A DNA stretch of 64,000 nt from a virus: the IMG/VR virus record IMGVR_UViG_3300002835_000103, positions 18,536 to 82,535 of that record. One strand, written 5' to 3'. Shown in pieces: positions 7,228 to 62,179 of this stretch. The notes beneath the pieces are model-generated. The model was given only the letters and a program-made list of their open reading frames with translations, had not been told where the DNA came from and did not search any database. The translations under genes were made by a program, and so were the position numbers. Positions within the stretch are counted from its first letter, which is position 1, and each line of letters begins with the position of its first letter.

Positions 7228-7239
7228 TTTGTTGTTCTT

Positions 7240-8361: not shown

Positions 8362-8377
8362 TTTGTTTTTCTTTTAA

Positions 8378-9526
8378 TTAATAGTAACCGATTGCTGCAG
8401 AGTGATAAAAAGTACCGGCAGCGGCATTTGTCCAAGCTGATAATGAACCTACTTGTGTTGGACTAGATCTATCTAAAGTATCTCCTAGCCCAAGATTACC
8501 TGTACTTTGATATGTATCACCCCAAGACCATAGTGTGCCATCTGTTTTAATTGCCAACGTAAAATACGAGCCCGAGTAAACGTTTCCCCAATTAGTTAAT
8601 GCACCAACCTGTACTGGACTAGATCTATCTGTAGTATTGCCTAACCCTAATCGTCCATCTGCACCGTAACCCCATGACCACATGGTACCATCTGTTTTAA
8701 TGGCCATATGATAATAATTACCAGCAGAAACCTTAGACCAATTTGTAAGGGAACCTACCTGTACTGGGCTAGATCTATGTGTAGTATCACCTTGGCCGAG
8801 TTCTCCATAAAAATTACTTCCAGTTGTCCATAATGTACCGTCTGTTTTAATTGCGGCCAGATGATATGGACCTGCAGAAACTGTTGACCAAGTTGTTAAA
8901 GCACCAATCTGTACTGGACTAGATCTATCTGTAGTATTACCTTGACCTAATTGTCCGTAGGTATTTTTACCCCATCCCCACATTGTACCATTGGTTTTAA
9001 TTGCATGAACGGTTCTATAATTGCCAGCTGAAACTTTTAACCAATTTGTAAGGGAACCTACCTGTACTGGGCTGTCTCTATTTGATTCATCTCCTAATCC
9101 CAATGCACCTTTATAATTATTTCCCCATGCCCACAATGTTCCGTCTGTTTTAACTGCGGCAGTGTGATAACCTCCACCGTCAAAACTATCAGCATTGCCG
9201 GCCCAATTAGTTAATGCACCAACTTGTTTTGGACTTGAATAAGTTGTAGTATTACCCAGCCCCAATATTCCAGATACACCGTATCCCCATGTCCATAATG
9301 TACCATCGGTTTTAACCGATATTTTATGATAACCTCCGGCAGCAACTCTTAACCAATTAGACAATGCGCCAATTTGCACTGGGGTAGATTTATCAATTGT
9401 AGTTCCGTCACCTAGTGCACCATATCCACCATCACCCCAACTCCAAAGGTAATACCCCGGAGGAGTGGGTTGAATTATGTTAATTGTTACCCCTGCGTAT
9501 CCGCCGCCTGAAAATGTAACTGCCAT
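8378..9526 (-). CDS. RCC1-repeat beta-propeller protein 3
   Basis: 382 residues. Tag MAVTFSGGGYAGVTINI and hinge PTPP, then YYLWSWG and seven blades. One inner blade has TLWTTGSN where all others keep WxWG, so one tryptophan of the propeller core is lost. Blade 3 contains a short insertion (GNADSFDGGG). The C-terminus is HSAAIGYY, unlike the SN ending of most paralogues. The position inside the late array and lack of catalytic residues suggest a structural or receptor-binding role. Confidence 0.8.
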   Translation of the reverse strand: MAVTFSGGGYAGVTINIIQPTPPGYYLWSWGDGGYGALGDGTTIDKSTPVQIGALSNWLRVAAGGYHKISVKTDGTLWTWGYGVSGILGLGNTTTYSSPKQVGALTNWAGNADSFDGGGYHTAAVKTDGTLWAWGNNYKGALGLGDESNRDSPVQVGSLTNWLKVSAGNYRTVHAIKTNGTMWGWGKNTYGQLGQGNTTDRSSPVQIGALTTWSTVSAGPYHLAAIKTDGTLWTTGSNFYGELGQGDTTHRSSPVQVGSLTNWSKVSAGNYYHMAIKTDGTMWSWGYGADGRLGLGNTTDRSSPVQVGALTNWGNVYSGSYFTLAIKTDGTLWSWGDTYQSTGNLGLGDTLDRSSPTQVGSLSAWTNAAAGTFYHSAAIGYY

Positions 9527-9553
9527 TTTTTGTTCTTTTCTTTTTTTTAATTT

Positions 9554-10681
9554 TTAGTTACTGATGGCCATGCTGTGAAAATAACCTGCGGCAACACTTG
9601 ACCAATTAGTTAAAGCCCCAATTTGCACCGGACTAGATCTATCTGTAGTATTTCCTAAACCCAATTGACCCGTATTATTAAAACCCCATGACCACATGGT
9701 ACCGTCTGTTTTGATGGATAGGTTGTGATATTCACCGGCATCAACACTTGACCAAGTGGTTAACGCGCCAATTTGTGTTGGACTAGATCTATTTGCGGTA
9801 TCGCCTAAACCCAATCGCCCCGCATAATTTCTACCCCATACCCACATGGTACCATCTGTTTTAATGGCCAAGTTATGATATTGACCAGCAGCAATATTTA
9901 ACCAATTAGTTAAAGATCCAACTTGTTTTGGACTAGAATAGTATGTCGTATTACCTACCCCCAATTGCCCAAAATTATTTTTACCCCATAACCACATGGT
10001 TCCATCTGTTTTAATTGCCGATGTGTGCTCATAACCTGCAGCAATATTTAACCAATTAGTTAAAGATCCAACTTGTTTTGGACTAGAATAGTATGTCGTA
10101 TTACCTAGGCCTAATTGCCCTTTACCCCCAATACCCCATACCCACATGGTACCATCTGTTTTAATGGCCAAGTTATGATATTGACCAGCAACAATATTTG
10201 ACCATGTGTTTAATGCACCAACCTGTACTGGACTAGATACAGATGTAGTATTACCTAGGCCTAATCGCCCGGCGGACCCGTTACCCCATACCCACATAGT
10301 ACCATCTGTTTTGAGCGCCAGATTGTGTTGACCACCTGCACCAATTTTTGCCCAGGTAGTTAATGCACCAATTTGTACTGGATTTGAATAATTTGTGGTA
10401 TTACCTAAACCTAATTGACCAAGGCTACCCGATCCCCAAGACCATAGTGTACCATCTGTTTTAATGGCCAAGTTATGATATTGACCAGCAGCAATATTTA
10501 ACCAATTAGTTAAAGCCCCAACTTGTACAGGACTAGATCTATCGGTAGTATTGCCTAATCCTAATTGACCTGAATTATTTCTGCCCCATGACCACAGGTA
10601 TTGCGGAGGAGGTGGCGGCGGAGCTGGGCATACTAGATTAAACCCGCCCCTTGTTGAAAAACCTGAAAAGGTAAATGCCAT
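9554..10681 (-). CDS. RCC1-repeat beta-propeller protein 4, with recently duplicated blades
   Basis: 375 residues from the chosen ATG, which gives the array's standard opening MAFTFSGFSTRGG. A longer reading frame adds 18 residues upstream, but these overlap the end of the preceding gene and match nothing. A six-proline hinge is followed by seven blades. This gene has the most regular blades of the set: neighbouring copies are identical over more than 50 bases with 150-base spacing, a sign of recent duplication or gene conversion. Probable fibre-tip adhesin. Confidence 0.8.
   Translation of the reverse strand: MAFTFSGFSTRGGFNLVCPAPPPPPPQYLWSWGRNNSGQLGLGNTTDRSSPVQVGALTNWLNIAAGQYHNLAIKTDGTLWSWGSGSLGQLGLGNTTNYSNPVQIGALTTWAKIGAGGQHNLALKTDGTMWVWGNGSAGRLGLGNTTSVSSPVQVGALNTWSNIVAGQYHNLAIKTDGTMWVWGIGGKGQLGLGNTTYYSSPKQVGSLTNWLNIAAGYEHTSAIKTDGTMWLWGKNNFGQLGVGNTTYYSSPKQVGSLTNWLNIAAGQYHNLAIKTDGTMWVWGRNYAGRLGLGDTANRSSPTQIGALTTWSSVDAGEYHNLSIKTDGTMWSWGFNNTGQLGLGNTTDRSSPVQIGALTNWSSVAAGYFHSMAISN
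9842..10112 (-). repeat. Near-identical 150-bp blade repeats inside one RCC1 gene
   Basis: Bases 9901-9956 and 10051-10106 are the same with exactly 150 bases (50 codons) between them, and 9841-9889 recurs at 10141-10189. The period is one blade and keeps the frame, so blades could be gained or lost without a frameshift. Confidence 0.8.
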
Positions 10682-10694
10682 TTTGTTTTTCTTT

Positions 10695-11825
10695 TTATCC
10701 GATAGCCAGGCTGAAAGAACCACCTGCAGAAACATTTGCCCAATTTGTTAATGATCCAATCTGCACTGGACTAGATCTATTTGTGATATCGCCTATACCC
10801 AATCGACCAGATTGATTATCGCCCCATGACCACATGGTACCATCTGTTTTAATGGCCAGATTGTGTTCAACACCCCCTGAAATATTTAACCAAGTAGTTA
10901 ATGCACCAACTTGTACTGGACTAGATCTATTTGTAGTATCTCCTAACCCCAATGAGCCTACTGCATTTCTTCCCCAAGACCATAAAGTACCATCTGTTTT
11001 TACAGCCAGGCCGTGATAATACCCAGCGGAAACACTTTGCCAAGTAGTTAATGCGCCAATCTGTACAGGACTAGATCTATTTGTAGTATCGCCCAATCCA
11101 AGTTCGCCGTAACCATTAGCGCCCCATGTCCATAAAGTTCCATCTGTTTTAGTTGCGAGGGCACCAAATCTAATATTAGTAATATTTGACCAAGTGGTTA
11201 AAGCGCCAATTTGTTGTGGGCTAGATGTATTTGTAGTATTACCCAATCCCAATTGCCCGTTAGACCCTTGTCCCCATGACCACATAGTACCATTGGTTTT
11301 AATTGCTGCAGCACCGTTTCCAGCAAGTGAAATTATAATTGCCCAATCAGTTAAGGAACCTACTTGTACTGGACTAGAATATGATGTAGTATTGCCCAAT
11401 CCTAACTTGTAACCATAATTACCACCCCACGCCCATAAGGTACCATTGGTTTTTATAGCAAACATATTAGACGCTTTCCCTGTACTAATATTTGCCCAAG
11501 TAGTTAAAGCTCCAATCTGTTTTGGAGAAGAATAATATGTAGTATTACCTAAGCCTAATTGACCTGCATAATTTCTGCCCCAAGACCACATTGTGCCATC
11601 TGTTTTTAGAGCCATTGCCCAACCTTCTGCTGCAGCAATACTTGACCAAGTGGTCAATGCACCAATCTGTTTTGGAGAAGAATAATCTGTAGTATTACCT
11701 AACCCCAATCGACCACTAATACCTTGACCCCATGACCAAAGATAATATATCGGAGGTGGTGGTGGTTGAGTAGTGGTAAATGATATACCCGAATAATTGC
11801 CGATACCTGAAATAGTAAATGCCAT
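10695..11825 (-). CDS. RCC1-repeat beta-propeller protein 5
   Basis: 376 residues. Tag MAFTISGIGNYSGISF, hinge QPPPPP, then IYYLWSWGQG and seven blades. Blades 3 and 4 read KTNGT in place of KTDGT, and blade 4 carries an unusual IIISLAGNGAA strand, so the inner face differs from its paralogues. It ends at FSLAIG. Spacing to the next gene is 13 bases. The role is inferred to be an exposed adhesin, from the shared tag and context. Confidence 0.8.
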   Translation of the reverse strand: MAFTISGIGNYSGISFTTTQPPPPPIYYLWSWGQGISGRLGLGNTTDYSSPKQIGALTTWSSIAAAEGWAMALKTDGTMWSWGRNYAGQLGLGNTTYYSSPKQIGALTTWANISTGKASNMFAIKTNGTLWAWGGNYGYKLGLGNTTSYSSPVQVGSLTDWAIIISLAGNGAAAIKTNGTMWSWGQGSNGQLGLGNTTNTSSPQQIGALTTWSNITNIRFGALATKTDGTLWTWGANGYGELGLGDTTNRSSPVQIGALTTWQSVSAGYYHGLAVKTDGTLWSWGRNAVGSLGLGDTTNRSSPVQVGALTTWLNISGGVEHNLAIKTDGTMWSWGDNQSGRLGIGDITNRSSPVQIGSLTNWANVSAGGSFSLAIG

Positions 11826-11840
11826 TTTGTTCTCTTTTTA

Positions 11841-12974
11841 TTAATAGCTAATAGCCAAAGTGAACGTACCAACTGCATCAATCTTTGACCAATTAGTTGA
11901 TGAACCAATCTGTGTTGGGCTTGATCTATTTGTGGTATCACCTAACCCCAATCGACCGGATCCATTTCCACCCCAAGCCCACATGGTACCATCTGTTTTA
12001 ATGGCCACGCTGTGACTTCTACCGGCATCAATACTTGACCAATTGGTTAAAGCACCAACTTGAACTGGGCTTATATATTGAGTGGTACCACCTAAACCTA
12101 ACATTCCTATATAATTGCGACCCCATCCCCACAAGGTGCCATTATTTTTCAGGGCCACGCTGTGAGCATATTTACCCCCAGCAACACTTAACCAATTGGT
12201 TAGACCCCCTACCTGTTTTGGGCTAGAATAATATGTATAATTATTTAATCCTAACTGACCAAAAGCATTCATCCCCCATGACCATAACGTACCATCTGTT
12301 TTGACGGCCATACTGGCCCTATACCCTCCAGCAATATTTAACCAAGTAGTTAATGAACCAATTTGTACTGGACTAGATCTATTTGAGGTATCGCCTAGCC
12401 CCAGTGAACCGTGTTGATTAACTCCCCATGCCCACATGGTACCATCTGTTTTAATGGCCATGGTATGCTGACCACCTGCATTAATCTTTGACCAAGTAGT
12501 TAATGCACCAATTTGTACTGGACTAGATATACTTGTAGTATTGCCTAACCCCAATCGACCGCTATTATTATAACCCCATGACCACATGGTACCATCTGTT
12601 TTAATGGCTATGTTGTAGAAGAAACTTCCTTCAATTGTTGCCCAATTGGTTCCTGCGCCAATCTGTACTGGACTAGATCTATCTGTAAGATCCCCCAAAC
12701 CTAACTGCCCCGTATCATTGTAACCCCATGACCATAAGGTACCATCTGTTTTGAGGGCCATGCCGTGATTATACCCGGCAGCAATATTCAACCAAGAGCC
12801 TAGCGAACCAATTTGTTTTGGACTTGAATAACTTGTAGTATTACCTAAACCTAGTCGACCGTCGCTTCCACTACCCCACGACCATAGATAAGATGTTGGT
12901 TCGGGAGGTGGAGGTGGAGTATACACCATGTCGAAACTACCTTTTGTGGTTATACCCGAAAAAATTAATGGCAT
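11841..12974 (-). CDS. RCC1-repeat beta-propeller protein 6
   Basis: 377 residues. Tag MPLIFSGITTKGSFDMVY with a PPPPPEP hinge, then SYLWSWGSG and seven blades. One blade has the divergent strand LKNNGTLWGWG and another has the turn LNNYTYYSSP in place of LGNTT. The tag deviates most in the first two residues from the MAFTFSG type but keeps the FSGxxxxG core. Same late operon as its neighbours. Confidence 0.8.
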   Translation of the reverse strand: MPLIFSGITTKGSFDMVYTPPPPPEPTSYLWSWGSGSDGRLGLGNTTSYSSPKQIGSLGSWLNIAAGYNHGMALKTDGTLWSWGYNDTGQLGLGDLTDRSSPVQIGAGTNWATIEGSFFYNIAIKTDGTMWSWGYNNSGRLGLGNTTSISSPVQIGALTTWSKINAGGQHTMAIKTDGTMWAWGVNQHGSLGLGDTSNRSSPVQIGSLTTWLNIAGGYRASMAVKTDGTLWSWGMNAFGQLGLNNYTYYSSPKQVGGLTNWLSVAGGKYAHSVALKNNGTLWGWGRNYIGMLGLGGTTQYISPVQVGALTNWSSIDAGRSHSVAIKTDGTMWAWGGNGSGRLGLGDTTNRSSPTQIGSSTNWSKIDAVGTFTLAISY

Positions 12975-12992
12975 TTTTTTTTATTCTTTTTA

Positions 12993-14099
12993 TTAATTAC
13001 TGATGGCATGGCTAAAATAACTACCTGCAGCAACACTTAACCATTTTGTTAATGCGCCAATCTGTACTGGACTAGATCTATTGGTAGTAGTGCTGTCGCC
13101 TACTTGACCATTTCCGTTACCGCCATGTCCCCATAATGTGCCATCTGTTTTAATAGCCAATACATGTCGAGGACCTGCAGTAACATTTGACCAAGTTGTT
13201 AAAGCGCCAATTTGTACTGGATTAGATCTGTCTGTAGCATCACCTAAACCCAATTGTCCTTCATCATTGTTACCCCATGACCACATGGTACCATCTGTTT
13301 TGATTGCAACACTGCCAGCAGAATGAACAGCAACCTTTGACCAAGTAGTTAAGGCACCGATCTGTGTTGGGTTAACTGCGTTAGAGGTATTACCTAATCC
13401 CAATCTGTTATTTTGACCGCTACCCCATGTCCACAAGGTACCATTTGTTTTAACTGCCACGGCGTGATACCACGAAATTGCAAATGTTGACCAATTGGTA
13501 TCTGTACCAACTTGTACTGGACTAGAACCGGCTCTACCTTGCGTTGCTTCGCCTCCACCAGAGCCTATCGACCACAACGTACCATCAGTTTTGCCGGCAA
13601 GGGTAAAGTACCTACCTGCAGAAACATTCAACCAAGTTGTTAGTGCACCTACTTGTTTTGGACTTGAATATGGTGAAGTATTACCTACACCTAATTGCCC
13701 GTAGCTATTACCACCCCATGCCCACATGGTACCATCCGTTTTAACTGCCATGGTGTGATTTCTACCTCCAGAAACTCGTGACCAAGTTGTTAGTGCACCT
13801 ACTTGTTTGGGACTTGAATAGTTTGTAGTATTACCTACACCCAATTGACCAACATTGTTTATACCCCAAGACCATAGACTACCATCGGCTTTGATAGCCA
13901 TGCCATGATAACCTCCTGCGGCAACACTTAACCAAGTAGTTAAAGCACCAATTTGTACTGGACTAGATCTATTTGTGGTATCGCCTAACCCCAATCGACC
14001 AGAGCTATTACCGCCCCATGACCATAAGTAAAATTCTGGTGGTGGTGGAGGAGGCTGAATATTGACTCCGCCTAATATAGTTATTCCGATTAGATCCAT
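12993..14099 (-). CDS. RCC1-repeat beta-propeller protein 7, one blade strongly diverged
   Basis: 368 residues. A shortened tag (MDLIGITILGGVNI), a six-proline hinge, EFYLWSWGGN and seven blades. Blade 4 is rebuilt: TLWSIGSGGGEATQGRAGSSP replaces the usual WSWG...LGLGNTT turn. Another blade ends TLWGHGGNGNGQVGDS. These two changes alter loops on one side of the propeller and could be a binding face. No enzyme motif is present. Confidence 0.78.
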   Translation of the reverse strand: MDLIGITILGGVNIQPPPPPPEFYLWSWGGNSSGRLGLGDTTNRSSPVQIGALTTWLSVAAGGYHGMAIKADGSLWSWGINNVGQLGVGNTTNYSSPKQVGALTTWSRVSGGRNHTMAVKTDGTMWAWGGNSYGQLGVGNTSPYSSPKQVGALTTWLNVSAGRYFTLAGKTDGTLWSIGSGGGEATQGRAGSSPVQVGTDTNWSTFAISWYHAVAVKTNGTLWTWGSGQNNRLGLGNTSNAVNPTQIGALTTWSKVAVHSAGSVAIKTDGTMWSWGNNDEGQLGLGDATDRSNPVQIGALTTWSNVTAGPRHVLAIKTDGTLWGHGGNGNGQVGDSTTTNRSSPVQIGALTKWLSVAAGSYFSHAISN

Positions 14100-14128
14100 T
14101 TTGTTTTCTTATTATCTTTTACAATTTA

Positions 14129-15007
14129 TTAAAATGTTATTGAACCAGAACTGGTCCATTTATATATTCTATATCCGCCGGATACTATTACGTTGGGAGA
14201 TCCTGTTGTATTTGATGCGGCCGGATTAATATCTTCGTAACGAAGTATAACTATACCGGAACCACCAGCTCCGGAACCGCTACCGTTGCCTACTTGATTA
14301 CCGCCGCCGCCACCGCCGGTATTTACATTGCCGGCAGCATTACCGGCACCGCCGCCGTATCCTATACTAGCTGTGATATCGGATCCGCCACCAACGCCAC
14401 CGGATCCGCCTCCGGCATATCCAACACTTGTACCGGATATAGAGGAGTTTATACCTGCTCCACCAAAACCGCCGGCGGTGGTGGTGGCTGCTGCTCCAAC
14501 TGCGCCAGCGCCACCACCACCGCCACCGCCACCAGTTTCTTGGCCACCACCAGCTCCGCCATTATAGCCTTGTCTTGGTGGTCCAGCAGTTCCAGAACCG
14601 CCGCCACTTGCTAGTCTACCACCTTGACCACCACCCGATCCACCGTTATTTATAGAACCTATGCTGCCGCCGGCGGCATTACCTGCACCACCGCCGATTG
14701 CTGTTGCAGTTCCGCTTATTGATGAATTTGCCCCAACACCGCCATTTAGTCCGTTGTTATTTCCTGTAGCAGTGCCGCCGGCACCTACTGTAATAGTAAG
14801 TGTAGAGCTACTAACTAACAAGGCTGTTCCTGTTAATAATCCGCCGGCGCCACCACCGCCACCACCGCCCCGCTGGTTATCAGCTGATCCACCACCTGCA
14901 CCGCCCGCGACTACAAGGTATTCTATAGTAGGAGTCACCGGCGGTGTTGGAATATGCACCGCAGTCAATGCTCCGTTTATTCTTACGCCTGAAATTGTTA
15001 GTGCCAT
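14129..15007 (-). CDS. Glycine-rich adhesin-like protein with the RCC1-array tag
   Basis: 292 residues. Tag MALTISGVRINGALTAVHIP and hinge TPPVTPT, then EYLVVAGGAGG and a long glycine-rich domain (GGGGGGGAGG, GGQETGGGGGGGGAGAVG), ending with TGSPNVIVSGGYRIYKWTSS and GSITF. Glycine-rich tip proteins of this type include the S16 phage Gp38 adhesin, in which polyglycine II helices carry variable loops. Its tag is almost the same as that of the next gene, which carries an RCC1 propeller. Likely a virion tip protein. Confidence 0.7.
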   Translation of the reverse strand: MALTISGVRINGALTAVHIPTPPVTPTIEYLVVAGGAGGGSADNQRGGGGGGGAGGLLTGTALLVSSSTLTITVGAGGTATGNNNGLNGGVGANSSISGTATAIGGGAGNAAGGSIGSINNGGSGGGQGGRLASGGGSGTAGPPRQGYNGGAGGGQETGGGGGGGGAGAVGAAATTTAGGFGGAGINSSISGTSVGYAGGGSGGVGGGSDITASIGYGGGAGNAAGNVNTGGGGGGNQVGNGSGSGAGGSGIVILRYEDINPAASNTTGSPNVIVSGGYRIYKWTSSGSITF

Positions 15008-15023
15008 TTTGTTCTTTTAATTT

Positions 15024-16166
15024 TTAGCTACTGATGGCTAAAGACCATCGTTGACCTGCGGCAACACTTGACCAATTAGTCAATGAACCCACTTGAATCG
15101 GACTAACTACCGGTGTAGTAGTAGTGCCATCACCTACTTCACCATATGAATTCCTGCCCCAAGACCACAAGGTACTGTTAGTTTTAATTGCCAAATTATG
15201 ATATCTACCCGCGGAAATCTTTAACCAATTGGTTAACGCGCCAATTTGGGTTGGACTAGATCTACGTTCTTGATCACCTAATCCCAATCTACCGGCGCCA
15301 GTGTTACTATTATCACCCCATGACCACATGGTGCCATCTGTTTTAATGGCCACGCAGTGACTACTACCTCCAGCAATACTTGCCCAAGTAGTACCTGCAC
15401 CAACTTGTTTTGGACTAGAATAATCTGTAGTATTGCCTAGTCCCAACATGCCATAAGCATTTCTACCCCAAGTCCATATGGTACCATCTGTTTTAACTGC
15501 AATACCGTGATAAGAACCCCCAGAAACTCTTAACCAATTGGTTAATGCGCCAATTTGTACTGGGCTAGATACATTTGTAACATTACCTAAGCCTAGTGCA
15601 CCAAAAGTATCATTTCTACCCCAAGACCATATGGTACCATCTGTTTTAATTGCAGCGGTCCAACTTCCCGAACCTGCAGAAACACTTGCCCAAGTGGTGC
15701 CTGCACCAATTTGTACTGGACTAGATACACTTGTGGTATTGCCTAAACCCAATTGACCATAATTATTTTTACCCCATGACCACAAGGTGCCATCTGTTTT
15801 AACGGCCATGCTGTGATACCTACCTGCACTAACATTTAACCAAGTAGTTAATGCACCAACCTGTACTGGACTAGATGTATTTGTAGTATTGCCAAGGCCT
15901 AATTGACCATCGCCATTGAGACCCCATGCCCACATGGTACCATCTGTTTTAGTCGATAAACTGTGATAGCCCGCCGCAATATTTAACCAAGTAGTTAATG
16001 CGCCGACTTGTGTTGGACTAGCTACATTTGTAGTATTGCCTAACCCTAATTGACCGGCATTGTTTCTGCCAAAACTCCATAGGTAATATATTGGTGGAGG
16101 AGGAGGTGGAATATGCACCGCATTAAGATTACCGGTTATAGTAAAACCGGAGATGGTCAGGGCCAT
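15024..16166 (-). CDS. RCC1-repeat beta-propeller protein 8
   Basis: 380 residues. Tag MALTISGFTITGNLNAVHIP, hinge PPPPPP, then IYYLWSFGRN and seven blades. The first blade has SFG in place of SWG. Two blades have longer turns (NDTFGALG and NSNTGAGRLG), and the last uses KTNSTLWSWG. The tag and hinge match the glycine-rich gene downstream, though the modules attached are unrelated. It is the first RCC1 gene of the array in transcription order. Confidence 0.8.
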   Translation of the reverse strand: MALTISGFTITGNLNAVHIPPPPPPIYYLWSFGRNNAGQLGLGNTTNVASPTQVGALTTWLNIAAGYHSLSTKTDGTMWAWGLNGDGQLGLGNTTNTSSPVQVGALTTWLNVSAGRYHSMAVKTDGTLWSWGKNNYGQLGLGNTTSVSSPVQIGAGTTWASVSAGSGSWTAAIKTDGTIWSWGRNDTFGALGLGNVTNVSSPVQIGALTNWLRVSGGSYHGIAVKTDGTIWTWGRNAYGMLGLGNTTDYSSPKQVGAGTTWASIAGGSSHCVAIKTDGTMWSWGDNSNTGAGRLGLGDQERRSSPTQIGALTNWLKISAGRYHNLAIKTNSTLWSWGRNSYGEVGDGTTTTPVVSPIQVGSLTNWSSVAAGQRWSLAISS

Positions 16167-21710: not shown

Positions 21711-21718
21711 TATTTATC
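21711..21718 (-). promoter_or_regulatory. Late-type promoter variant (GATAAATA)
   Basis: GATAAATA on the minus strand in the 40-base gap before the oxygenase-like gene. It differs in one base from the T4 late core, and its 35-base distance to the ATG is like that of the exact copies. Confidence 0.45.
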
Positions 21719-22910
21719 ATCCTAATCCTATACTATGGCTGTATCCAGTAGCTACAGTAAGCCAATTTGTTAAGGATCCGACCTGGTTTGGCTCACTTCT
21801 ACCAAAAGTATCTCCAAGACCAAGTTTACCGTTAAAGTTATCTCCCCAAGACCACAATGTACCGTCGGTTTTAGTTATTATGCACTGAGTGTTCAAAGCT
21901 CCAGTCCCAGCATTTGACCAAGTTGTTAATGCACCAACTTGTTTTGGACTAGAATAACTTGTGGTATTACCTAAACCCAATTGTCCAGATGATCCTCTAC
22001 CCCATGTCCACAATGTACCATCAGTTTTAATTGCCGCGCAGCTATTATACATCGCACGAATTTTTGACCAATTTGTTAATGCCCCAATTTGTACTGGGCT
22101 TGAAAAGTATGTAATATTACTTAGACCTAATTGACCATAACCATTATTTCCCCAGCTCCACATAGTACCATCAGTTTTAATAGCAATCGAAAAATTGGAT
22201 TGTCCCCCGCAACTACCACGTGCCCAAGTTGTTAATGCACCAATCTGTACTGGACTAGATCTATGCGCAGTATCGCCTAGTCCTAATTTGCCATGATGGT
22301 TCGCGCCCCATGACCACATAGTACCATCTGTTTTAATGGCTATGGAGTGATCAACACCGGAGGAAACACTTGACCAATTTGTTAATGCCCCAATTTGTAC
22401 TGGACTAGATATATTTGTAGTATTACCTAAACCAAGCTGACCTAAGTTATTTTTACCCCACGACCAAATAGTACCATCTGTTTTGATGGCCATGCTGCAA
22501 CCGAAGCCTGAACTAACACGAGACCAAGTGGTTAATGCACCAATCTGCACTGGACTAGATCTATTTGTAGTATCACCTAAGCCCAATACGCCTTGATAAT
22601 TTTCACCCCATGCCCATAAGGTGCCGTCGGTTTTAATTGCTTGACTATTTGAGTATCCTGCACCTACAACAGACCAATTCAAAGACCCAACTTGTTTTGG
22701 ACTTGAATAATTTGTCGTATTGCCTATACCTATTTGACCACTGCTACCGCTCCCCCATGAATATATTTTATATACTACCGGAGGCGCAGGCCAAATGCCT
22801 GCTCGTTTTGCCTGCATTTGATCTGCAGGATTAAAAATTCCAGAAGCAGATGAAGTATTAACTACTGTGGGTGTTGCAGATATTAATCCGCCGTAATACT
22901 TTTTAACCAT
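21717..22910 (-). CDS. RCC1-repeat beta-propeller protein 9 (second tag type)
   Basis: 397 residues. It carries a different N-terminal tag of about 40 residues (KYYGGLISAT, then NTSSASGIFNPADQMQAKRAG and a WPAPP hinge), followed by YKIYSWGSG and seven RCC1 blades. The tag occurs in structural proteins of aquatic phages and is shared with the next gene. The second blade turn is shortened (GSLNWSVVGAG). Because of the other tag, it may dock at a different virion site from the array proteins. Confidence 0.78.
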   Translation of the reverse strand: MVKKYYGGLISATPTVVNTSSASGIFNPADQMQAKRAGIWPAPPVVYKIYSWGSGSSGQIGIGNTTNYSSPKQVGSLNWSVVGAGYSNSQAIKTDGTLWAWGENYQGVLGLGDTTNRSSPVQIGALTTWSRVSSGFGCSMAIKTDGTIWSWGKNNLGQLGLGNTTNISSPVQIGALTNWSSVSSGVDHSIAIKTDGTMWSWGANHHGKLGLGDTAHRSSPVQIGALTTWARGSCGGQSNFSIAIKTDGTMWSWGNNGYGQLGLSNITYFSSPVQIGALTNWSKIRAMYNSCAAIKTDGTLWTWGRGSSGQLGLGNTTSYSSPKQVGALTTWSNAGTGALNTQCIITKTDGTLWSWGDNFNGKLGLGDTFGRSEPNQVGSLTNWLTVATGYSHSIGLG

Positions 22911-22928
22911 ATTAATTTATATTGTTAT

Positions 22929-24140
22929 TTATTGCTTAGTAGCCAACACGAATCGATGGGAATTTCCTGCAACAACATCTATCCAGGTAGTCAACGATCC
23001 AACTTGATTTGGACTAGTATTATTAAAAATATAGCCTTGTGCCAGGACTCCACCCTGATCACTTCCCCATGCCCATAATGTACCATTTGTTTTAATTGCG
23101 GTGGTGAAATAATTACCTGCAGAAACTTTTAACCAATTAGTTAAAGCTCCAACTTGGTTCCAAACGTATGTACTCGAAGTTCCGTTATTTCCCAGTTCTC
23201 CATATGAATTCTGGCCAATAGTCCATAATGTACCATCAGTTTTAGTTGCTGCATTGTGGTTGCGGTTAGCAGCAACCGACGCCCAATTTGTGCCTGAGCC
23301 AACTTGTGTTGGCTCAGATCTTTTTACAGTATCCCCAAATCCTAATCTGCCCTGAAAACCACTTCCATTAGTCCCCCAGGCATACAACGTACCATCTGTT
23401 TTAATTGCAAAACTTGTATTATAACCTGCAGAAATCTTTAGCCAAGTGGTTAGAGCACCAATCTGTTTTGGACTCGAATATGCTGTAGTATTACCTAAAC
23501 CCAATTGACCGTCATTAGCAGATCCCCAACTCCACAATGTACCATCGGTTTTAACTGCCAAACAATGAAATTGAACAACTGAAGTAGTTTTCCAATTGGT
23601 TAAAGCGCCAATTTGTTTAGGAGAAGAATAATAAGTACTATTACCTAGACCCAGTACTCCGGCGTTATTAGCACCACAACTCCACATCGTGCCATCGGTT
23701 TTAACTGCAATAAAGCATTGTAAACCTGCGCTAACACTTTCCCAATTAGCTAATGCACCTACTTGCGTTGGACTAGAAACTGGTGTGGTATTACCAAGAC
23801 CCAAACGACCATACCCATTTCTTCCCCAGGCCCAAAATGTTCCGTCAGTTTTAATAGAATATCCTGAGTGTCCTCCGGCTGCTATAGTTTTCCAATTGGT
23901 TAAAGATCCAACTTGTTTAGGTGAGGAATAAAGGTTAGTATTACCTAAGCCAAGGTTACCATATGAATTTTGCCCCCAAGACCAAAGATTGTATGGGATA
24001 GGAGGTGCTGCAGGCGTAGGCCAATTGCCTGCTCGTTTTGCCTGCATTTGTTGAGTAGGATTGAATATTCCAGAAGCGGATGAAGTATTAACTACCGTTT
24101 TGGTGGCAGATATTAGTCCTCCATAATACCTTCTTTTCAT
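22929..24140 (-). CDS. RCC1-repeat beta-propeller protein 10 (second tag type)
   Basis: 403 residues. Tag KRRYYGGLISATKTVV...GIFNPTQQMQAKRAG and a WPTPAAPP hinge, then YNLWSWGQN and seven blades. Several blades depart from the WxWG core: TMWSCGAN, TLYAWGTN and TLWTIGQN. One has an insert GSGFQGRLGFG. It is the most diverged RCC1 protein in the window but clearly a paralogue of the downstream gene with the same tag. Confidence 0.78.
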   Translation of the reverse strand: MKRRYYGGLISATKTVVNTSSASGIFNPTQQMQAKRAGNWPTPAAPPIPYNLWSWGQNSYGNLGLGNTNLYSSPKQVGSLTNWKTIAAGGHSGYSIKTDGTFWAWGRNGYGRLGLGNTTPVSSPTQVGALANWESVSAGLQCFIAVKTDGTMWSCGANNAGVLGLGNSTYYSSPKQIGALTNWKTTSVVQFHCLAVKTDGTLWSWGSANDGQLGLGNTTAYSSPKQIGALTTWLKISAGYNTSFAIKTDGTLYAWGTNGSGFQGRLGFGDTVKRSEPTQVGSGTNWASVAANRNHNAATKTDGTLWTIGQNSYGELGNNGTSSTYVWNQVGALTNWLKVSAGNYFTTAIKTNGTLWAWGSDQGGVLAQGYIFNNTSPNQVGSLTTWIDVVAGNSHRFVLATKQ

Positions 24141-32627: not shown

Positions 32628-33746
32628 TTATGACGAGATTGCAGTTGAATGTCTATATCCTGCAGAAACATTCAACCAATTAGTTAAAGCACCAATTTGT
32701 ACTGGACTAGATCTATTTGTGGTATTACCTTGACCTAATTGACCGTAGCTATTACCGCCCCATGACCACAGTGTACCGTCGGTTTTAACTGCCGTAGTAT
32801 GGAATTGTCCCGCATCAATTTTTGACCAAGTAGTCAATGCTCCAACTTGTACAGGGCTAAATATATCAGTAGTATTACCTAAACCCAATCGGCCTGTCTC
32901 GCCTGAACCCCAAGCCCATAATGTACCATCTGTTTTAATGGCTACATTATGCTGATATGCTGCTTCTATAATTGACCAATTGGTCAACGCACCAACTTGT
33001 GCTGGACTAGAACCACCGCCCGATCCTCCATCTTGTCCTGCATTGTTTCTACCCCAAGCCCACAATGTACCATTGGTTTTAATGGCAATCGTATGATGGT
33101 CTCCGCTAGTACAGCGCAACCAATTATTTAATGCGCCAACTTGCACAGGACTAGATCTATAAAATGTATTGCCCTGGCCCAACTGCCCATAAAAATTATT
33201 TCCCCATGACCACAGGGTACCATCGGTTTTTACGGCAAACGACGATGAACCGCCGGTGCCAATACTCGCCCACGTGGTTAATGCGCCAACTTGTTTGGGA
33301 CTTGAATATGCTGTAGTATTACCGAAGCCAAGTTGTCCCGAGCCATTGGTTCCCCATGCCCACATGGTGCCATCTGTTTTTATAGCCAAACTATGCTCGC
33401 GGCCGCTGGCCAGACTACTCCAACCGGTTAATGCGCCAACTTGTACTGGACTAGATCTTGCGGTTGTAGTATTATCCCCCAATTGTCCACTGGCGTTATT
33501 ACCCCAACTCCATAATGTACCATCTGTTTTTATAGCTGTATTATGATACCCACCGCCAGCAACACTTAACCAATTACCCAGGGCACCAATTTGCGTGGGG
33601 CTCGATCTATTTGTGGTATCTCCCACGCCCAATCTCCCGTGGTAATTTACTCCCCATGACCATAAGTAAAATTCTGGTGGCGGAGGCAGATCAGGTGTCT
33701 CGTATGAAAATGTTCCACCAAATGTTAGATTTTGAAATGTGATCAT
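32628..33746 (-). CDS. RCC1-repeat beta-propeller protein 11
   Basis: 372 residues. Tag MITFQNLTFGGTFSYE and a DLPPPP hinge, then EFYLWSWGVN and seven RCC1 blades. One blade has an all-glycine turn (AGQDGGSGGGSSPAQVG) replacing LGxGNTT. It lies far from the main array, between a glycine-rich gene and a small structural gene, which shows that the RCC1 module has spread within the fibre region. Confidence 0.8.
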   Translation of the reverse strand: MITFQNLTFGGTFSYETPDLPPPPEFYLWSWGVNYHGRLGVGDTTNRSSPTQIGALGNWLSVAGGGYHNTAIKTDGTLWSWGNNASGQLGDNTTTARSSPVQVGALTGWSSLASGREHSLAIKTDGTMWAWGTNGSGQLGFGNTTAYSSPKQVGALTTWASIGTGGSSSFAVKTDGTLWSWGNNFYGQLGQGNTFYRSSPVQVGALNNWLRCTSGDHHTIAIKTNGTLWAWGRNNAGQDGGSGGGSSPAQVGALTNWSIIEAAYQHNVAIKTDGTLWAWGSGETGRLGLGNTTDIFSPVQVGALTTWSKIDAGQFHTTAVKTDGTLWSWGGNSYGQLGQGNTTNRSSPVQIGALTNWLNVSAGYRHSTAISS

Positions 33747-57498: not shown

Positions 57499-57750
57499 TT
57501 AAGCACGAGTGAAAGCATCGCTACCCATAGTAGCATAAGCTGCTGCTACCATTGTGCGGGATGGGGTACCCAAGCGATATGCTGTTTTACCATTCTTAGT
57601 AGAATTGGTATAGATTGCGTGACCTTCAGAACGAAGCTCACTGATACGAGGACGAACGCTGCCCTCAGTTGTGCCAGTCAAACCTGCCAATTGGGCGGGT
57701 GTGAATTGACGACCAGACAAAAGAACTTTCAATACACGGTCTTTAACCAT
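57499..57750 (-). CDS. Winged helix-turn-helix protein
   Basis: 83 residues. VKDRVLKVLLSGRQFTPAQLAGLTGTTEGSVRPRISELRSEGHAIYT is a standard winged HTH: FTPAQLAGLTG as helix 2 and TEGSVRPRISELRSEG as the recognition helix, followed by a beta wing (NGKTAYRLG). It has its own consensus sigma70 promoter, a palindromic site within that promoter and a leader pseudoknot. Autoregulation is a reasonable inference. It may switch early transcription. Confidence 0.72.
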   Translation of the reverse strand: MVKDRVLKVLLSGRQFTPAQLAGLTGTTEGSVRPRISELRSEGHAIYTNSTKNGKTAYRLGTPSRTMVAAAYATMGSDAFTRA

Positions 57751-57824: not shown

Positions 57825-57853
57825 ATTATACAGCATTTAGCTGTATCTGTCAA
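57825..57853 (-). promoter_or_regulatory. Consensus sigma70 promoter of the winged-HTH gene
   Basis: TTGACA, a 17-base spacer and TATAAT on the minus strand: a perfect match to the host housekeeping promoter. It lies between the omega-like gene and the winged-HTH gene. Confidence 0.8.
57828..57846. promoter_or_regulatory. Palindromic operator-like site inside the promoter
   Basis: ATACAGC-N5-GCTGTAT is a perfect inverted repeat of seven-base arms covering the spacer and most of the -10 box. A repressor bound there would block RNA polymerase. The neighbouring winged-HTH protein is a candidate. Confidence 0.5.
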
Positions 57854-57861
57854 GCACTTAG

Positions 57862-58083
57862 TTAGCCTTTTTGTGGCTTCTTGACCTTGTTCAAATATTC
57901 TCTACCAATAAAACCCTGCTCAACTTCATTCAAAGCAGTTACAATTGGCTTATGATGTTTTGCATCAATTTTTGGTGCATATCCTTTGCGCAATTCTCTG
58001 GCGCGAGCTGATGCAATTAGCACCAGATCATACCGATTACCTACCATGTTAACTGCATCTTCTGATGTGATTTGATTTGACAT
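57862..58083 (-). CDS. RNA polymerase omega subunit-like protein (RpoZ-like)
   Basis: 73 residues. EDAVNMVGNRYDLVLIASARARELRKGYAPKID then KPIVTALNEVEQGFIGREYL follows the bacterial omega subunit almost throughout: NRFDLVL..A..RARQL, the P(K/L)I..K.KP stretch, and the T(V/A)ALREIE.G helix. In bacteria omega binds and stabilises the beta' subunit. A phage copy could replace host omega and change polymerase properties. It overlaps the upstream gene by one base and is one gene away from a regulator. The HTPKI-like part resembles beta-proteobacterial omega. Confidence 0.8.
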   Translation of the reverse strand: MSNQITSEDAVNMVGNRYDLVLIASARARELRKGYAPKIDAKHHKPIVTALNEVEQGFIGREYLNKVKKPQKG

Positions 58084-58553
58084 TATGCTACCTTTACGAT
58101 TTCTTTTAAACGATCTGCACAGTATGTTGCCGCGAATGCTTTTGGTTTAACAAAAGGAACCACATTACACATACCCTTAATATACCCAATGGCTTCACCT
58201 ACAACGCAAGAAGAGCCAAACATTTCATCTGGGTTAATATCTAAATGAACTTCAATTGGTCTATCATCAATTAGTTTTTCCAATTCAAGATATAAATTTG
58301 CAATTTTGATTACTTCATTCATCAAACGCATACGAGGTTTGTTTTTACGTTGGTCATAATCTTTTTCGGTTTGAACTTCTCCAAAAATTTTACAACCATG
58401 TTTACCATCAATATGAACTACAATTGCCAAAGTATAATCGGCAAACCACATATCATTTTTACGGAAACGTTCTGAATCGCAACCAATATAAATTTTTGTA
58501 TCTGGACCTTGAGCATCAATATACTCTTTAATTTTTACGAAATCGAATTTCAT
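58083..58553 (-). CDS. RNase H-like fold protein (DUF458-like)
   Basis: 156 residues. KIYIGCDSERF at the start, AIVVHIDGKHGCKIFGE in the next strands, and PIEVHLDINPDE then KPKAFAATYCADRL at the end fit the predicted RNase H-like DUF458 family, with conserved Asp on strand 1 (GCDS) and Asp in HLDIN. Nuclease activity is not shown. It follows tRNA-Gly by ten bases in the same transcript. Confidence 0.6.
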   Translation of the reverse strand: MKFDFVKIKEYIDAQGPDTKIYIGCDSERFRKNDMWFADYTLAIVVHIDGKHGCKIFGEVQTEKDYDQRKNKPRMRLMNEVIKIANLYLELEKLIDDRPIEVHLDINPDEMFGSSCVVGEAIGYIKGMCNVVPFVKPKAFAATYCADRLKEIVKVA

Positions 58554-58562
58554 TTTTATTCC

Positions 58563-58636
58563 TGGAGCGGGGTAGGAGAATCGAACTCCTCGCTTTAGCT
58601 TGGAAGGCTAAGGTATTACCACTATACGAACCCCGC
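58563..58636 (-). tRNA. tRNA-Gly (UCC)
   Basis: 74 bases with full cloverleaf: acceptor GCGGGGT..., anticodon loop with UCC, TTCGATT T-loop, and encoded CCA. It begins two bases after the HldD stop codon, so it is embedded in a protein operon. Confidence 0.93.
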
Positions 58637-58638
58637 AT

Positions 58639-59418
58639 TTACAATATTACTTCATTTGTCTTGCGCATATCTGCACAAGTATACTCCTGATAACTTGCCT
58701 TTAAAATTTCTGGCATCGGAATAATTTCAATCTCCGCATGATATTCTTCTGCAACCATATCCGCAACATCATAAAAACTCATAGTTTTACCTGTGCCCAT
58801 ATTAAAGATTCCAGATCTACTTGATTCTAAAAACTTTAAATGATAATCCACAATAGATTTCACATGAACAAAATCTCTACGATAATTTTCACTATTCTCA
58901 AATAATTTAATCTTACCTGTTTCTATGGCTTGTTTCTTAAACTGAGCAAATGGGCTTGCCTGATTGCCTTTATGTTCTTCACCTTCCCAAGCCCATACAT
59001 TAAAATATCTAAATCCTTGCACAATGGGACTATCATGATGATGTTGTTTTACATATCTTTCAAACAAATACTTTGACCAAGCATAAGGCGTTCTTGGATC
59101 CAACGGAGAATTTTCGCAAAACTCTTTATTCAATCCATACACACTTGCAGAACTAGAATACTGTAAATTAACTCCGAATGTTTTACACTCATCGTATAAA
59201 TCCATGGAGAATTCGTAATTTTGTCTTAGTACTTTATCAATATCTTTTTCGGTTGTTGAACTAATAGCACCAGCATGAATAACCCATTCAAAATCCATAA
59301 CACCTGGTCTCGGACCATCATCATATTCATACGTTGCAACATCATCACCTCGATCGCGCAAGGCCGTCAATAGTCTAGAACCAATAAATCCTCTATGACC
59401 TGTTAGCAATATTTTCAT
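58639..59418 (-). CDS. hldD: ADP-L-glycero-D-manno-heptose 6-epimerase-like (HldD)
   Basis: 259 residues. NAD-binding GHRGFIGSRL, the SSSASVYG strand, YAWSKYLFE (YxxxK catalytic pair), GFRYFNVW...GHKGxxASPF and ENxxRRDFVHV match HldD closely, including the NYEFSMDLY and SGIFNMGTGKTMSFYDVAD regions. HldD epimerises ADP-D-glycero- to ADP-L-glycero-manno-heptose, used for LPS inner core. About 50 residues shorter than the bacterial enzyme. Last gene of the heptose operon; overlaps the HAD gene by 26 bases. Confidence 0.8.
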   Translation of the reverse strand: MKILLTGHRGFIGSRLLTALRDRGDDVATYEYDDGPRPGVMDFEWVIHAGAISSTTEKDIDKVLRQNYEFSMDLYDECKTFGVNLQYSSSASVYGLNKEFCENSPLDPRTPYAWSKYLFERYVKQHHHDSPIVQGFRYFNVWAWEGEEHKGNQASPFAQFKKQAIETGKIKLFENSENYRRDFVHVKSIVDYHLKFLESSRSGIFNMGTGKTMSFYDVADMVAEEYHAEIEIIPMPEILKASYQEYTCADMRKTNEVIL

Positions 59419-59707: not shown

Positions 59708-60060
59708 GTCTGACTATCTCCAGGTGCAACTCTATAATTATCTTCTACCGAATCAGGTGTACTAACTTCAATGATAGTACCTTCTTCCTGACAAACCAAT
59801 TGATGCGGTAAACATGGAGGATTGTGCCAAGTATCGCCCGATTTAAGATACTTAATTTGTTCTTTGGCTGTTTTGGTATCAATCCATTTGACAAAGAATA
59901 ACCCGTCAAGTACATACCATGATTCATCTTTTTCAGAATGAAAGTGCATACTAAATTTTGCACCAGAGTTGAACTTCATCAACTTGCCGCAATATTTATC
60001 GTTAGTAGCCCAGATTAATTCGTGACCCCAACCTTTTTTAACAAAACCCTCAAGCCTCAT
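59704..60060 (-). CDS. Cupin-domain protein of the heptose cluster
   Basis: 118 residues. Cupin motifs KFSMHFHSEKDESWYVLDG (H-x-H-x-E metal pattern) and PHQLVCQEEGTIIEVST place it near sugar isomerase cupins. The N-terminus KKGWGHELIWATNDKYCGK resembles type II phosphomannose isomerases. Its substrate is unknown; an isomerase role in heptose or nucleotide-sugar supply is possible. It overlaps both neighbours by ATGA. Confidence 0.65.
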   Translation of the reverse strand: MRLEGFVKKGWGHELIWATNDKYCGKLMKFNSGAKFSMHFHSEKDESWYVLDGLFFVKWIDTKTAKEQIKYLKSGDTWHNPPCLPHQLVCQEEGTIIEVSTPDSVEDNYRVAPGDSQT

Positions 60061-60836
60061 TTTATTTCCTTTAGTGTAGGTGCATAATTGCCAACATGCT
60101 GTACTGTAATTGACGATGCTTTATTTGCAAATCTGATTGCATCTTCAATACTATTCGTCACCAGATATTGATAAGCTAAGGCGGCTAAGAATGTATCACC
60201 TGCCCCACACGCATCAAGAACATCAACTTTTTTGGTTGCGTAATTTGTGTTGACATACTCACTCCGTAACATTGCACCATTGGCACCCAACGTCACAATC
60301 ATATCCCATGCATACGACTCAGCCGCTTCAAATTCTTTTTCGTTGATTTTAACGTAAGCACCATTAAACGCTTCTAAGTTTCTTTTCTTCGTATCGATAA
60401 AAACTGGCCCATTAAAATTGTGAATCAGATTTTGAATGTGTTCGTAAGTTAAAAAGCCTTTATTGTAATCAGACACAACAACAGCATCATAACCTTCCGT
60501 ATCTACAATTCCATCCCATGGCTCTATCTTTGGCTCATCATCTATTCTAACAATTTGATATCCAGATTTTTCGTCTATGATTCTAGTCTTTGTGATCCTA
60601 GGTTCACCATTAATGCCAGCAGACGGATTTGAAATTATGGTTGTGTTACACCCAAGTTTATGCAGATTGCTATGGACATTTCGTGCCATACCAAGTCTGG
60701 TTTCTTTTCGTGTTAGTTTGATTATGGGAATTGGGGCTTCTGGACTCAATCTATCGATTGTTCCATATTGATAAACATCTATGCAAGAATCACCGAGCAA
60801 TAATATTTTGAATTGTTTTTGTTGTTGAATATCCAT
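60057..60836 (-). CDS. hldE: Heptose kinase, HldE N-domain-like (PfkB family)
   Basis: 259 residues. ILLLGDSCIDVYQYGTIDRLSPEAPIPI matches the HldE kinase start (GDxxLDxYxxGxxxRISPEAPVPV), and DACGAGDTFLAAL is the PfkB signature with the catalytic Asp. Usual HldE kinase domains are about 310 residues, so it is slightly short. The product would be heptose 1,7-bisphosphate. It overlaps the nucleotidyltransferase gene by 47 bases in another frame. In bacteria the two domains are usually one protein with the opposite order. Confidence 0.8.
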   Translation of the reverse strand: MDIQQQKQFKILLLGDSCIDVYQYGTIDRLSPEAPIPIIKLTRKETRLGMARNVHSNLHKLGCNTTIISNPSAGINGEPRITKTRIIDEKSGYQIVRIDDEPKIEPWDGIVDTEGYDAVVVSDYNKGFLTYEHIQNLIHNFNGPVFIDTKKRNLEAFNGAYVKINEKEFEAAESYAWDMIVTLGANGAMLRSEYVNTNYATKKVDVLDACGAGDTFLAALAYQYLVTNSIEDAIRFANKASSITVQHVGNYAPTLKEIK

Positions 60837-61185
60837 TTACCAAATCCACAAATCTAATCTCTTTACAATATTGACTTCCCACAATAGGCTTATCTTTATA
60901 ATCACTACCCTTAACCATTATAGGGGAATACTGTTTACAAAGCATTTCTAATTCTTTAGCTGAATCAAATATATGAACAGCACTAACTGCTCTTAAATTT
61001 TGTAACAGATGTTTTCTATCATCTTGATTATTAATAGGTCTACTATTGCCTTTTAATTCTTTAACTCGTCTATCCGAATCAATACAGACTATAAGTTGTT
61101 GACCACAACCTCTGGCATAATTAAGTAATTCGATATGTCCTCTATGGACAATATCAAAGGTGCCGTTGACAAGAATATTAATCAT
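60790..61185 (-). CDS. hldE: Heptose 1-phosphate adenylyltransferase, HldE C-domain-like
   Basis: 131 residues. ILVNGTFDIVHRGHIELLNYA holds the HxGH-type site (HRGH); VCIDSDRRVKELKGNSRPIN and VKGSDYKDKPIVGSQ, VNGYSTTKTIQ match the RfaE2 domain (SDxSxKRLKGxxRPxN; VKGGDYKxE; GxSTTxII). It adds AMP to heptose 1-phosphate. The gene starts seven bases after tRNA-Met and probably shares a transcript with MazG. Confidence 0.82.
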   Translation of the reverse strand: MINILVNGTFDIVHRGHIELLNYARGCGQQLIVCIDSDRRVKELKGNSRPINNQDDRKHLLQNLRAVSAVHIFDSAKELEMLCKQYSPIMVKGSDYKDKPIVGSQYCKEIRFVDLVNGYSTTKTIQNIIAR

Positions 61186-61191
61186 ATAAAA

Positions 61192-61268
<77 letters not shown>

Positions 61269-61285: not shown

Positions 61286-61370
61286 TGGTACCTGAGACCG
61301 GAATCGAACCGGTACACCTTGCGGCGAGAGATTTTAAGTCTCTTGTGTCTACCTATTTCACCACTCAGGC
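61286..61370 (-). tRNA. tRNA-Leu (UAA)
   Basis: 85 bases with a long variable arm, anticodon UAA, encoded CCA. Starts six bases after the MazG stop codon; the first acceptor pair is G-U. Confidence 0.92.
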
Positions 61371-61376
61371 GTTTGG

Positions 61377-61673
61377 TTATCCTCGGTAGTCTACATCTAT
61401 TTCCGACCAAGTACGCAGCTTATCGAATTTTCTTTGTTTAAACTGAATTACATTATTATAAGAAATAACTTTGTGCGAATCTAACAATTCAATCATTGCG
61501 AGAACATCGCCCAATTCTTCTTCAAGATGGTTTGTATTTGTTTTGCTTGGGGTATTTGGATGTGTATCAAACAATCCGAATCGAAATACTTTCGATGTTG
61601 CTTGAATTACTTCTGCGCATTCTTCTTGTAAAATCTGAAGAATGGCTGCTTGATCTTTGTTAAGTTCATTCAT
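61377..61673 (-). CDS. MazG-like nucleotide pyrophosphohydrolase
   Basis: 98 residues. LQEECAEVIQATSKVFRFG has the EExxE metal motif and LEEELGDVLAMIELL has the second ExxD motif, as in MazG/all-alpha NTP pyrophosphohydrolases. Phage MazG proteins are thought to lower ppGpp or unwanted nucleotides. Its own consensus sigma70 promoter lies 20 bases upstream, and two tRNAs plus the heptose genes follow. Confidence 0.75.
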   Translation of the reverse strand: MNELNKDQAAILQILQEECAEVIQATSKVFRFGLFDTHPNTPSKTNTNHLEEELGDVLAMIELLDSHKVISYNNVIQFKQRKFDKLRTWSEIDVDYRG

Positions 61674-61692: not shown

Positions 61693-61721
61693 ATTATAAC
61701 AGAATACGTGTTATATGTCAA
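61693..61721 (-). promoter_or_regulatory. Consensus sigma70 promoter of the MazG-tRNA-heptose unit
   Basis: TTGACA, a 17-base spacer and TATAAT on the minus strand, with TGT before the -10 (extended -10 pattern). AAGGTGA ribosome site follows. A perfect match to the host promoter. Confidence 0.8.
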
Positions 61722-62149
61722 GCATATTCGTAATTTACGGTATCCAAATTCTTTCTAAATTCTGTCGCACCGTTTTTCAAATGGAATCGTTTGGCCATTT
61801 CAGTAGGTGGGCTTAGTGTAACAAATCTTTTTATACTTGGACGAGTACTTGTTATATGGTCTCTGGCTTTAAAGATAAGTTCGCGACCTGCACCCGGAGT
61901 ATAACTCCATATGGTGTAGAATATAACGGTATCTGGTTCAGCGGGTTTGAAGAAAAGTTCCTCGCAGGTTGTCGGGATGCTGTCCATATAGGCAACACAT
62001 ACTACTGCTTGCGGTTTTTCATCTTTGAGGAGTATGAGAACTTCCCTATTTTCGGTGATTCGAAAAGCGACGGGAATCTCAGGGCGGACAGGGTCGTCTT
62101 CGATTACTCGAAGAATCGGATCATCTAAATTTTGTGGTTTATATATCAT
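61718..62149 (-). CDS. GNAT-like acyltransferase-fold phage protein
   Basis: 143 residues. The strand EVLILLKDEKPQAVVCVAYMD, GAGRELIFKARDHI (helix after the acyl-CoA loop) and RFVTLSPPTEMAKRFHLKNGATEF fit a small GNAT fold, in which the last part resembles the typical A..FY...GF. It occurs in marine phages as a conserved hypothetical protein. Exact late promoter 23 bases upstream. Substrate unknown. Confidence 0.5.
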   Translation of the reverse strand: MIYKPQNLDDPILRVIEDDPVRPEIPVAFRITENREVLILLKDEKPQAVVCVAYMDSIPTTCEELFFKPAEPDTVIFYTIWSYTPGAGRELIFKARDHITSTRPSIKRFVTLSPPTEMAKRFHLKNGATEFRKNLDTVNYEYA

Positions 62150-62171: not shown

Positions 62172-62179
62172 TATTTATA
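62172..62179 (-). promoter_or_regulatory. T4-type late promoter (exact TATAAATA)
   Basis: Exact TATAAATA on the minus strand, 23 bases before the ATG of the GNAT-like gene, in the divergent gap before the DnaJ-like gene. Confidence 0.68.

Follow-up and report, generated by a model that had tools for sequence, protein, structure and literature searches.

Whether a phage can carry a genuine omega subunit of RNA polymerase, and if so which enzyme that subunit would join and what it would change there, is the question raised by a small open reading frame in an uncultured virus, read initially as RpoZ-like. The stretch analysed (hereafter the window) comprises 64,000 nucleotides, positions 18,536 to 82,535, of IMG/VR virus record IMGVR_UViG_3300002835_000103 (82,535 bases), and its proteins include matches to phage tail-fibre and head families. 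About a dozen paralogues built of RCC1-like repeats (W-x-W-G ... QIGALTTW) are encoded on its minus strand, at 6076-16166, 21717-24140 and 32628-33746, and may be variable tail or adhesion proteins. No description of a phage-encoded omega was found in the titles and abstract starts of the open-licence literature searched, an earlier account elsewhere being possible. The reading that we favour, with moderate confidence, is that a virus-specific omega joins the host RNA polymerase early, with an altered response to ppGpp and an altered docking surface.

The omega gene, its product and its putative operon

Profile searches confirmed the homology. The protein matched the Pfam profile PF01192 (RNA_pol_Rpb6) over residues 10–59 with an E-value of 1e-14 (54.7 bits against a cut-off of 26) and the NCBIfam profile TIGR00690 (rpoZ) with 44.4 bits (cut-off 23.6), while E. 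coli omega in the PDB was matched at about 2e-11 over residues 4–66 of the window protein. No omega family of PHROGs v4 was matched, the best row reaching 0.058 over 20 residues. An AlphaFold2 model built with 45 sequences had a mean pLDDT of 81.5, residues 1–3 falling below 50, and its best Foldseek match was an E. coli omega chain (E = 6e-4); omega chains headed the results of both Foldseek and VIA. Comparison by VIA with a Vibrio cholerae omega chain gave Z 10.7 and rmsd 2.8 over 67 aligned residues, and comparison with the E. coli–ppGpp complex 4jk1 gave Z 9.8 and rmsd 2.9 over 70; middling Z values come easily to small helical models, but for omega sequence and fold were concordant. Identity to E. 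coli omega was 41% over 63 columns, and of the 22 positions at which 15 or more of the 17 bacterial references agree, 15 were kept, the seven changes being at M1, A2 and R3 together with F17Y, V39I, R52N and I54V. By profile, fold and core residues the gene is thus well supported as a genuine RpoZ homologue, as the initial annotation had it, and lies on the minus strand. The beta-proteobacterial character also claimed there is scarcely favoured, the nearest references being Neisseria (beta, and the sole beta-proteobacterium compared) and Aeromonas (gamma), both 44% identical.

The gene is intact, with an ATG start and an upstream Shine–Dalgarno-like AAAGG, and is the last of a minus-strand run in the order MazG, tRNA-Leu, tRNA-Met, cytidylyltransferase, PfkB kinase, two small ORFs, epimerase, tRNA-Gly, RNase H-like protein and omega (Table 1). 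The presence of a nearby MazG-like gene, remarked on at the outset, was verified by a PF03819 match of 29.1 bits (cut-off 22), 3.3 kb upstream of omega on the same strand.

Table 1. Features surrounding the omega gene, in window coordinates
Feature	Position	Strand	Remarks
T4-type late-promoter-like motif TATAAATA	62172..62179	-	23 nt before ORF 61718-62149
Exact sigma-70 promoter, TTGACA-17-TATAAT, TG before -10	61693..61721	-	Proposed start of MazG-to-omega operon
MazG-like pyrophosphohydrolase (PF03819, phrog_4856)	61377..61673	-	First gene past exact promoter
tRNA-Leu (taa)	61286..61370	-	
tRNA-Met (cat)	61192..61268	-	
Cytidylyltransferase-like protein (PF01467)	60790..61185	-	
PfkB-type kinase (PF00294)	60057..60836	-	Within omega gene run
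NAD-dependent epimerase (PF01370)	58639..59418	-	
tRNA-Gly (tcc)	58563..58636	-	Within omega gene run
RNase H-like protein (PF04308)	58083..58553	-	Stop shares one base with omega ATG (TAATG)
Phage omega (RpoZ-like)	57862..58083	-	73 aa; N-terminus MSNQIT against bacterial MARVT; C-terminal GREYL motif
Exact sigma-70 promoter	57825..57853	-	Directly past omega stop; would drive next gene
Winged helix-turn-helix protein, weak HTH_39 below cut-off	57499..57750	-	Family near omega in 13 lineages

Around omega in 55 loci (613,005 bases), the omega strand carried 113 sigma-70 promoters without mismatch and the opposite strand a single one, an unusually clean set of exact consensus promoters for uncultured phages. 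The promoter directly past the omega stop also carries, between its -35 and -10 elements, an operator-like inverted repeat (ACAGC-TAAAT-GCTGT). The motif TATAAATA, which we take to be the T4 late-promoter core, was rejected as a late-promoter signal on frequency, its 10 copies in the window comparing with a mean of 9.5 in shuffles; strand and position alone are notable, in that all 10 lie on the minus strand and six sit 21–35 nt before ORF starts.

The survey of phage genomes for RpoZ that had been proposed as a check was made in IMG/VR. The window protein alone (P0001) retrieved 12 loci, a near-identical gene (95–100%) being present in six records; an alignment of eight retrieved 167 encoding stretches, and an alignment of 45 retrieved 459 stretches encoding relatives on contigs of up to 524,565 bases. 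From each of the two scans 80 loci were kept and examined, these overlapping sets together holding 77 distinct proteins.

Target polymerase, ppGpp site 1 and the C-terminal motif

A polymerase of the phages' own was sought through its large subunits. The beta profile (PF00562) matched none of 31 and none of a further 10 records, the window's record not being among them, and the beta' profile (PF00623) none of 32, the window's own included; many of these records are fragments, so that missing genes are not proof of absence. With beta missing from all 41 records searched for it and beta' from all 32, the target is presumably the host polymerase. A gp55-type late sigma was present in 4 of 33 records and in 3 of a further 10, reaching 5.6e-61 on the contig of locus L144, and gp23 capsid in 5 of 32, neither occurring in the 82.5-kb window record; terminase (PF03237), found in merely 2 of 32, was of no use as a phage marker. 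In the 367-kb record G026, which carries locus L080, the gp55-matching ORF has an in-frame TAG, for which either TAG reassignment or a broken gene is possible. The proposal that the protein acts on the host enzyme therefore gains indirect backing, from the missing beta and beta' genes, the host-type promoters and the T4-type late sigma in relatives. It is likely that phage omega associates with polymerase in the omega position; its expression would be early and from host sigma, with a T4-like late sigma on the host polymerase used later.

According to PMC7676912, ppGpp at site 1 is coordinated by residues 2–5 of E. coli omega together with beta' R417 and K615, and enzyme with omega lacking residues 2–5 binds ppGpp only at >100 µM; PMC9638019 and PMC6416229 name Met-Ala-Arg as the ppGpp motif. 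The window omega reads M-S-N-Q-I-T, the equivalents of M1, A2 and R3 all being replaced, so that Met-Ala-Arg is lacking, although that motif is not required of omegas, being absent also from the Monoglobus (Bacillota) reference. The L144 omega, which is 72% identical and encoded on a 130-kb contig with a similar downstream gene order, reads M-S-N-Q-V-T, and because the change is shared with this relative it looks both old and kept. Reduced binding of ppGpp at site 1 in the window lineage is possible rather than probable, and its effect would depend on whether the host uses site 1.

Among the 77 distinct phage omegas the site-1 Arg was kept in 62, the others having Gly (7), Gln (5) or Asn (3), as counted in a fixed-offset register in which an individual protein may be shifted by one position. 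Since so many retain the Arg, its loss is not the common purpose of the family, and loss of ppGpp binding was rejected as a family-wide role. The shifted ppGpp response suggested by the initial annotation was accordingly recast: it stands as a prediction of a weaker site 1 where SNQI replaces the ppGpp-contacting residues, but not for phage omegas at large.

By way of contrast, the C-terminal motif G-x-[ED]-Y-L is shared by nearly all phage omegas and variable in bacteria. Residues near-invariant in phages (53–55 of 55) comprise G60, Y63, L64, E30, E55, I23 and G15, all but L64 being rare in bacteria: E30 occurs in 55/55 phage against 1/17 bacterial sequences, G60 in 53/55 against 1/17, and Y63 in 54/55 against 3/17. 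Conservation in phages of a stretch that drifts in bacteria suggests a phage-specific contact, and on this pattern we tentatively propose that the motif serves in docking or clamping in a manner peculiar to phages.

The same residues bear on two alternatives to a regulatory subunit. Phage omega may only keep the host polymerase assembled and stable after host synthesis has stopped, leaving regulation unchanged, as retention of the core fold and conserved residues and the presence of the site-1 Arg in most phage omegas would allow; a C-terminal motif that is phage-wide but variable in bacteria, and the loss of Met-Ala-Arg in the window lineage, both suggest more than a copy, and we regard simple supply as unlikely. 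Improbable, too, is a role outside the enzyme, in which phage omega would serve as decoy or adaptor and might, for instance, sequester a host regulator or a defence factor that recognises omega. Regulators can indeed target omega, as does GafA, which activates a phage-like gene transfer agent and binds omega (PMC9638019), and the phage-specific motif is strongly conserved, but the bacterial core residues are retained as they would be in a beta' binder.

Gene neighbourhood and origin

In the alignment-of-eight set the fetched stretch held tRNA genes in 74 of 80 loci, with a tRNA within 500 nt of omega in 60; the six lacking them were L038, L057, L059, L060, L068 and L070, some of which are short. 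Omega frequently lies 15–28 nt past a tRNA and sometimes 3–15 nt ahead of the next. Recurrent neighbours, identified by BLAST clusters over the loci plus family scans of representatives and counted as omega lineages of 55 distinct proteins, comprised a vWA RNA-binding protein (phrog_850; 21/55), a phosphoesterase (17/55), an AAA_33 kinase (15/55), a winged helix-turn-helix protein (13/55, mostly just past omega), the RNase H-like protein and MazG (11/55 each) and an HD_4 protein (6/55). The vWA protein (DUF7788/DUF2828), seen beside omega in phage tRNA arrays at L040:3031-4446 and in 20 other lineages, is in our own reading Ro60/TROVE-like.

The HD_4 proteins showed 33–42% identity to the hydrolase part of E. 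coli SpoT over 88–136 residues in 10 of 80 loci (tblastn), and HD_4 HMM matches occurred in 7 of 32 records, in 6 of them exceeding the cut-off; examples at L074:7542-8075, L036, L064 and L078 lie a few kb from omega, and the window's own record yielded no HD_4 SpoT-like protein. They are possibly alarmone hydrolases. As a partner of Arg loss the SpoT-like domain was rejected, for it neighbours Arg-keeping omegas (L036, L075) and an Arg-lacking one (L078) alike. A link to alarmones, through MazG in the putative operon and this nearby domain in some relatives, is plausible but unproven.

Comparison of 17 pairs of phage omega genes, one of them identical, gave dN/dS values of 0.01–0.28 in 15 of the 16 informative pairs, with dS above 1 in five pairs; the exception, L001–L017 within the window species, stood at 0.58 with six changes. 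These ratios indicate that the gene is under purifying selection. A functionless omega simply riding in the tRNA island, as its position between tRNA genes might suggest, is very improbable in the face of that selection, the broad spread and a derived, conserved motif.

Phylogenetic analysis placed 50 phage sequences, five near-duplicates of the 55 phage proteins having been left out, on one side of a branch (100/98) and the 17 bacterial references on the other. The split was recovered after a change of references, the second tree omitting the long-branched Monoglobus sequence. Few columns and many unresolved forks make this split the sole part of the tree used, and the separateness of the clade is partly selected for, the phage sequences having been collected by phage-type patterns.

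The neighbourhood of chromosomal rpoZ, gmk-rpoZ-spoT, was not seen at the phage loci. E. coli Gmk had no match in any of the 80 loci of the alignment-of-eight set, which are for that reason not chromosomal rpoZ loci, and full-length SpoT was confined to bacterial controls and locus L128. The phage-encoded status claimed for this omega is upheld by these results together with the phage-only clade and the 459 stretches. Contamination by host DNA, or misassembly, has virtually no prospect of explaining the gene and was rejected on sequence grounds: although the omega matches of an isolate-phage collection were all bacterial-like (two annotated contexts inspected, both gmk-rpoZ-spoT; one unannotated fragment; the rest judged by name and identical score), the absence of gmk, the near-identical copies in six IMG/VR records and the phage-only clade all speak against it.

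Chromosomal gmk-rpoZ-spoT was also present in some records filed as phages or plasmids, of which two Acinetobacter phage MD-2021a contigs and 'plasmids' the size of whole chromosomes are apparently misfiled. A scan of genome contigs with strict patterns revealed no true relative bearing the phage signature, its lone match being a false positive in a long ORF reading like DnaG primase, removed before all counts; a phylum search around that false match found omega in 57 of 59 genomes, from which 12 loci were fetched, 8 had a readable omega and 5 entered the tree. Six loci came from a scan with bacterial patterns. L128 is E. coli contamination, and L129 and L130 are taken to be alpha-proteobacterial, L129 alone of the two having been examined. 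Of L131–L133, L133 alone was examined; its omega (3001-3327), on a 119-kb contig, is a separate phage protein of 108 aa with canonical MARVT and without the NRF motif, adjoining genes whose products resemble thymidylate synthase and GTP cyclohydrolase. As the L131–L133 omega does not group with the main phage clade, phages may have acquired omega on two or more occasions.

Proposed mechanism and its significance

In the favoured reading, that of a virus-specific omega on the host enzyme, host sigma-70-type promoters would drive the early synthesis of omega from an operon for tRNAs and nucleotide metabolism; the viral subunit would then replace, or top up, host omega on the host RNA polymerase, clamping beta'. 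The swap would retain the stabilising role of omega while, in the window lineage, ppGpp site 1 would lose the part contributed by omega; G-x-[ED]-Y-L would be exposed on the enzyme surface and serve phage factors or a tighter contact with beta'. The fullest version, in which a broad group of large phages swaps omega and docks factors through this motif, and the MSNQ lineage in addition disables ppGpp site 1 and thereby frees transcription from stringent control, is doubtful as a whole; were it true, transcription of the phage tRNA array would be among what escapes in that lineage.

Several known systems offer partial parallels. From bacterial omega (TIGR00690, PF01192), whose fold and core residues it shares to the extent given above, the window protein differs in being phage-encoded, in lying elsewhere than between gmk and spoT, in having SNQ for MAR and in its phage-specific E30, E55, G60 and Y63. 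GafA likewise represents a virus-like element acting on the host polymerase through omega (PMC9638019), but it binds DNA and partners the omega of the host, whereas the window protein is omega itself. The T4 late sigma gp55, whose family occurs in 7 of 43 omega-phage records, is another small phage protein on the host polymerase. T4 AsiA and RpbA also remodel that enzyme; the T4 factors, however, add to or modify it, whereas phage omega would substitute a core subunit, and we know of no omega in T4. Jumbo phages of the phiKZ/AR9 type likewise encode relatives of cellular polymerase subunits, but theirs are the phages' own beta/beta'-like enzymes, whereas the omega-phage records searched yielded neither a beta nor a beta' gene. 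Eukaryotic giant viruses encode RPB6 homologues, and thus a virus-encoded member of the omega/Rpb6 family, as part of a complete viral polymerase. Self-encoded multi-subunit polymerases are mentioned in the review PMC13282480, from which the word omega is absent.

The phage omegas provide a natural experiment on omega function, with variants that have and variants that lack the ppGpp-contacting residues and with a C-terminal surface fixed by selection in phages and not in bacteria. Phages are known to control transcription with sigma factors, anti-sigma factors and modifiers directed at the host polymerase, or with a whole polymerase of their own; replacing one core subunit of the host polymerase with a viral version would amount to another means of takeover, represented on hundreds of uncultured phage contigs.
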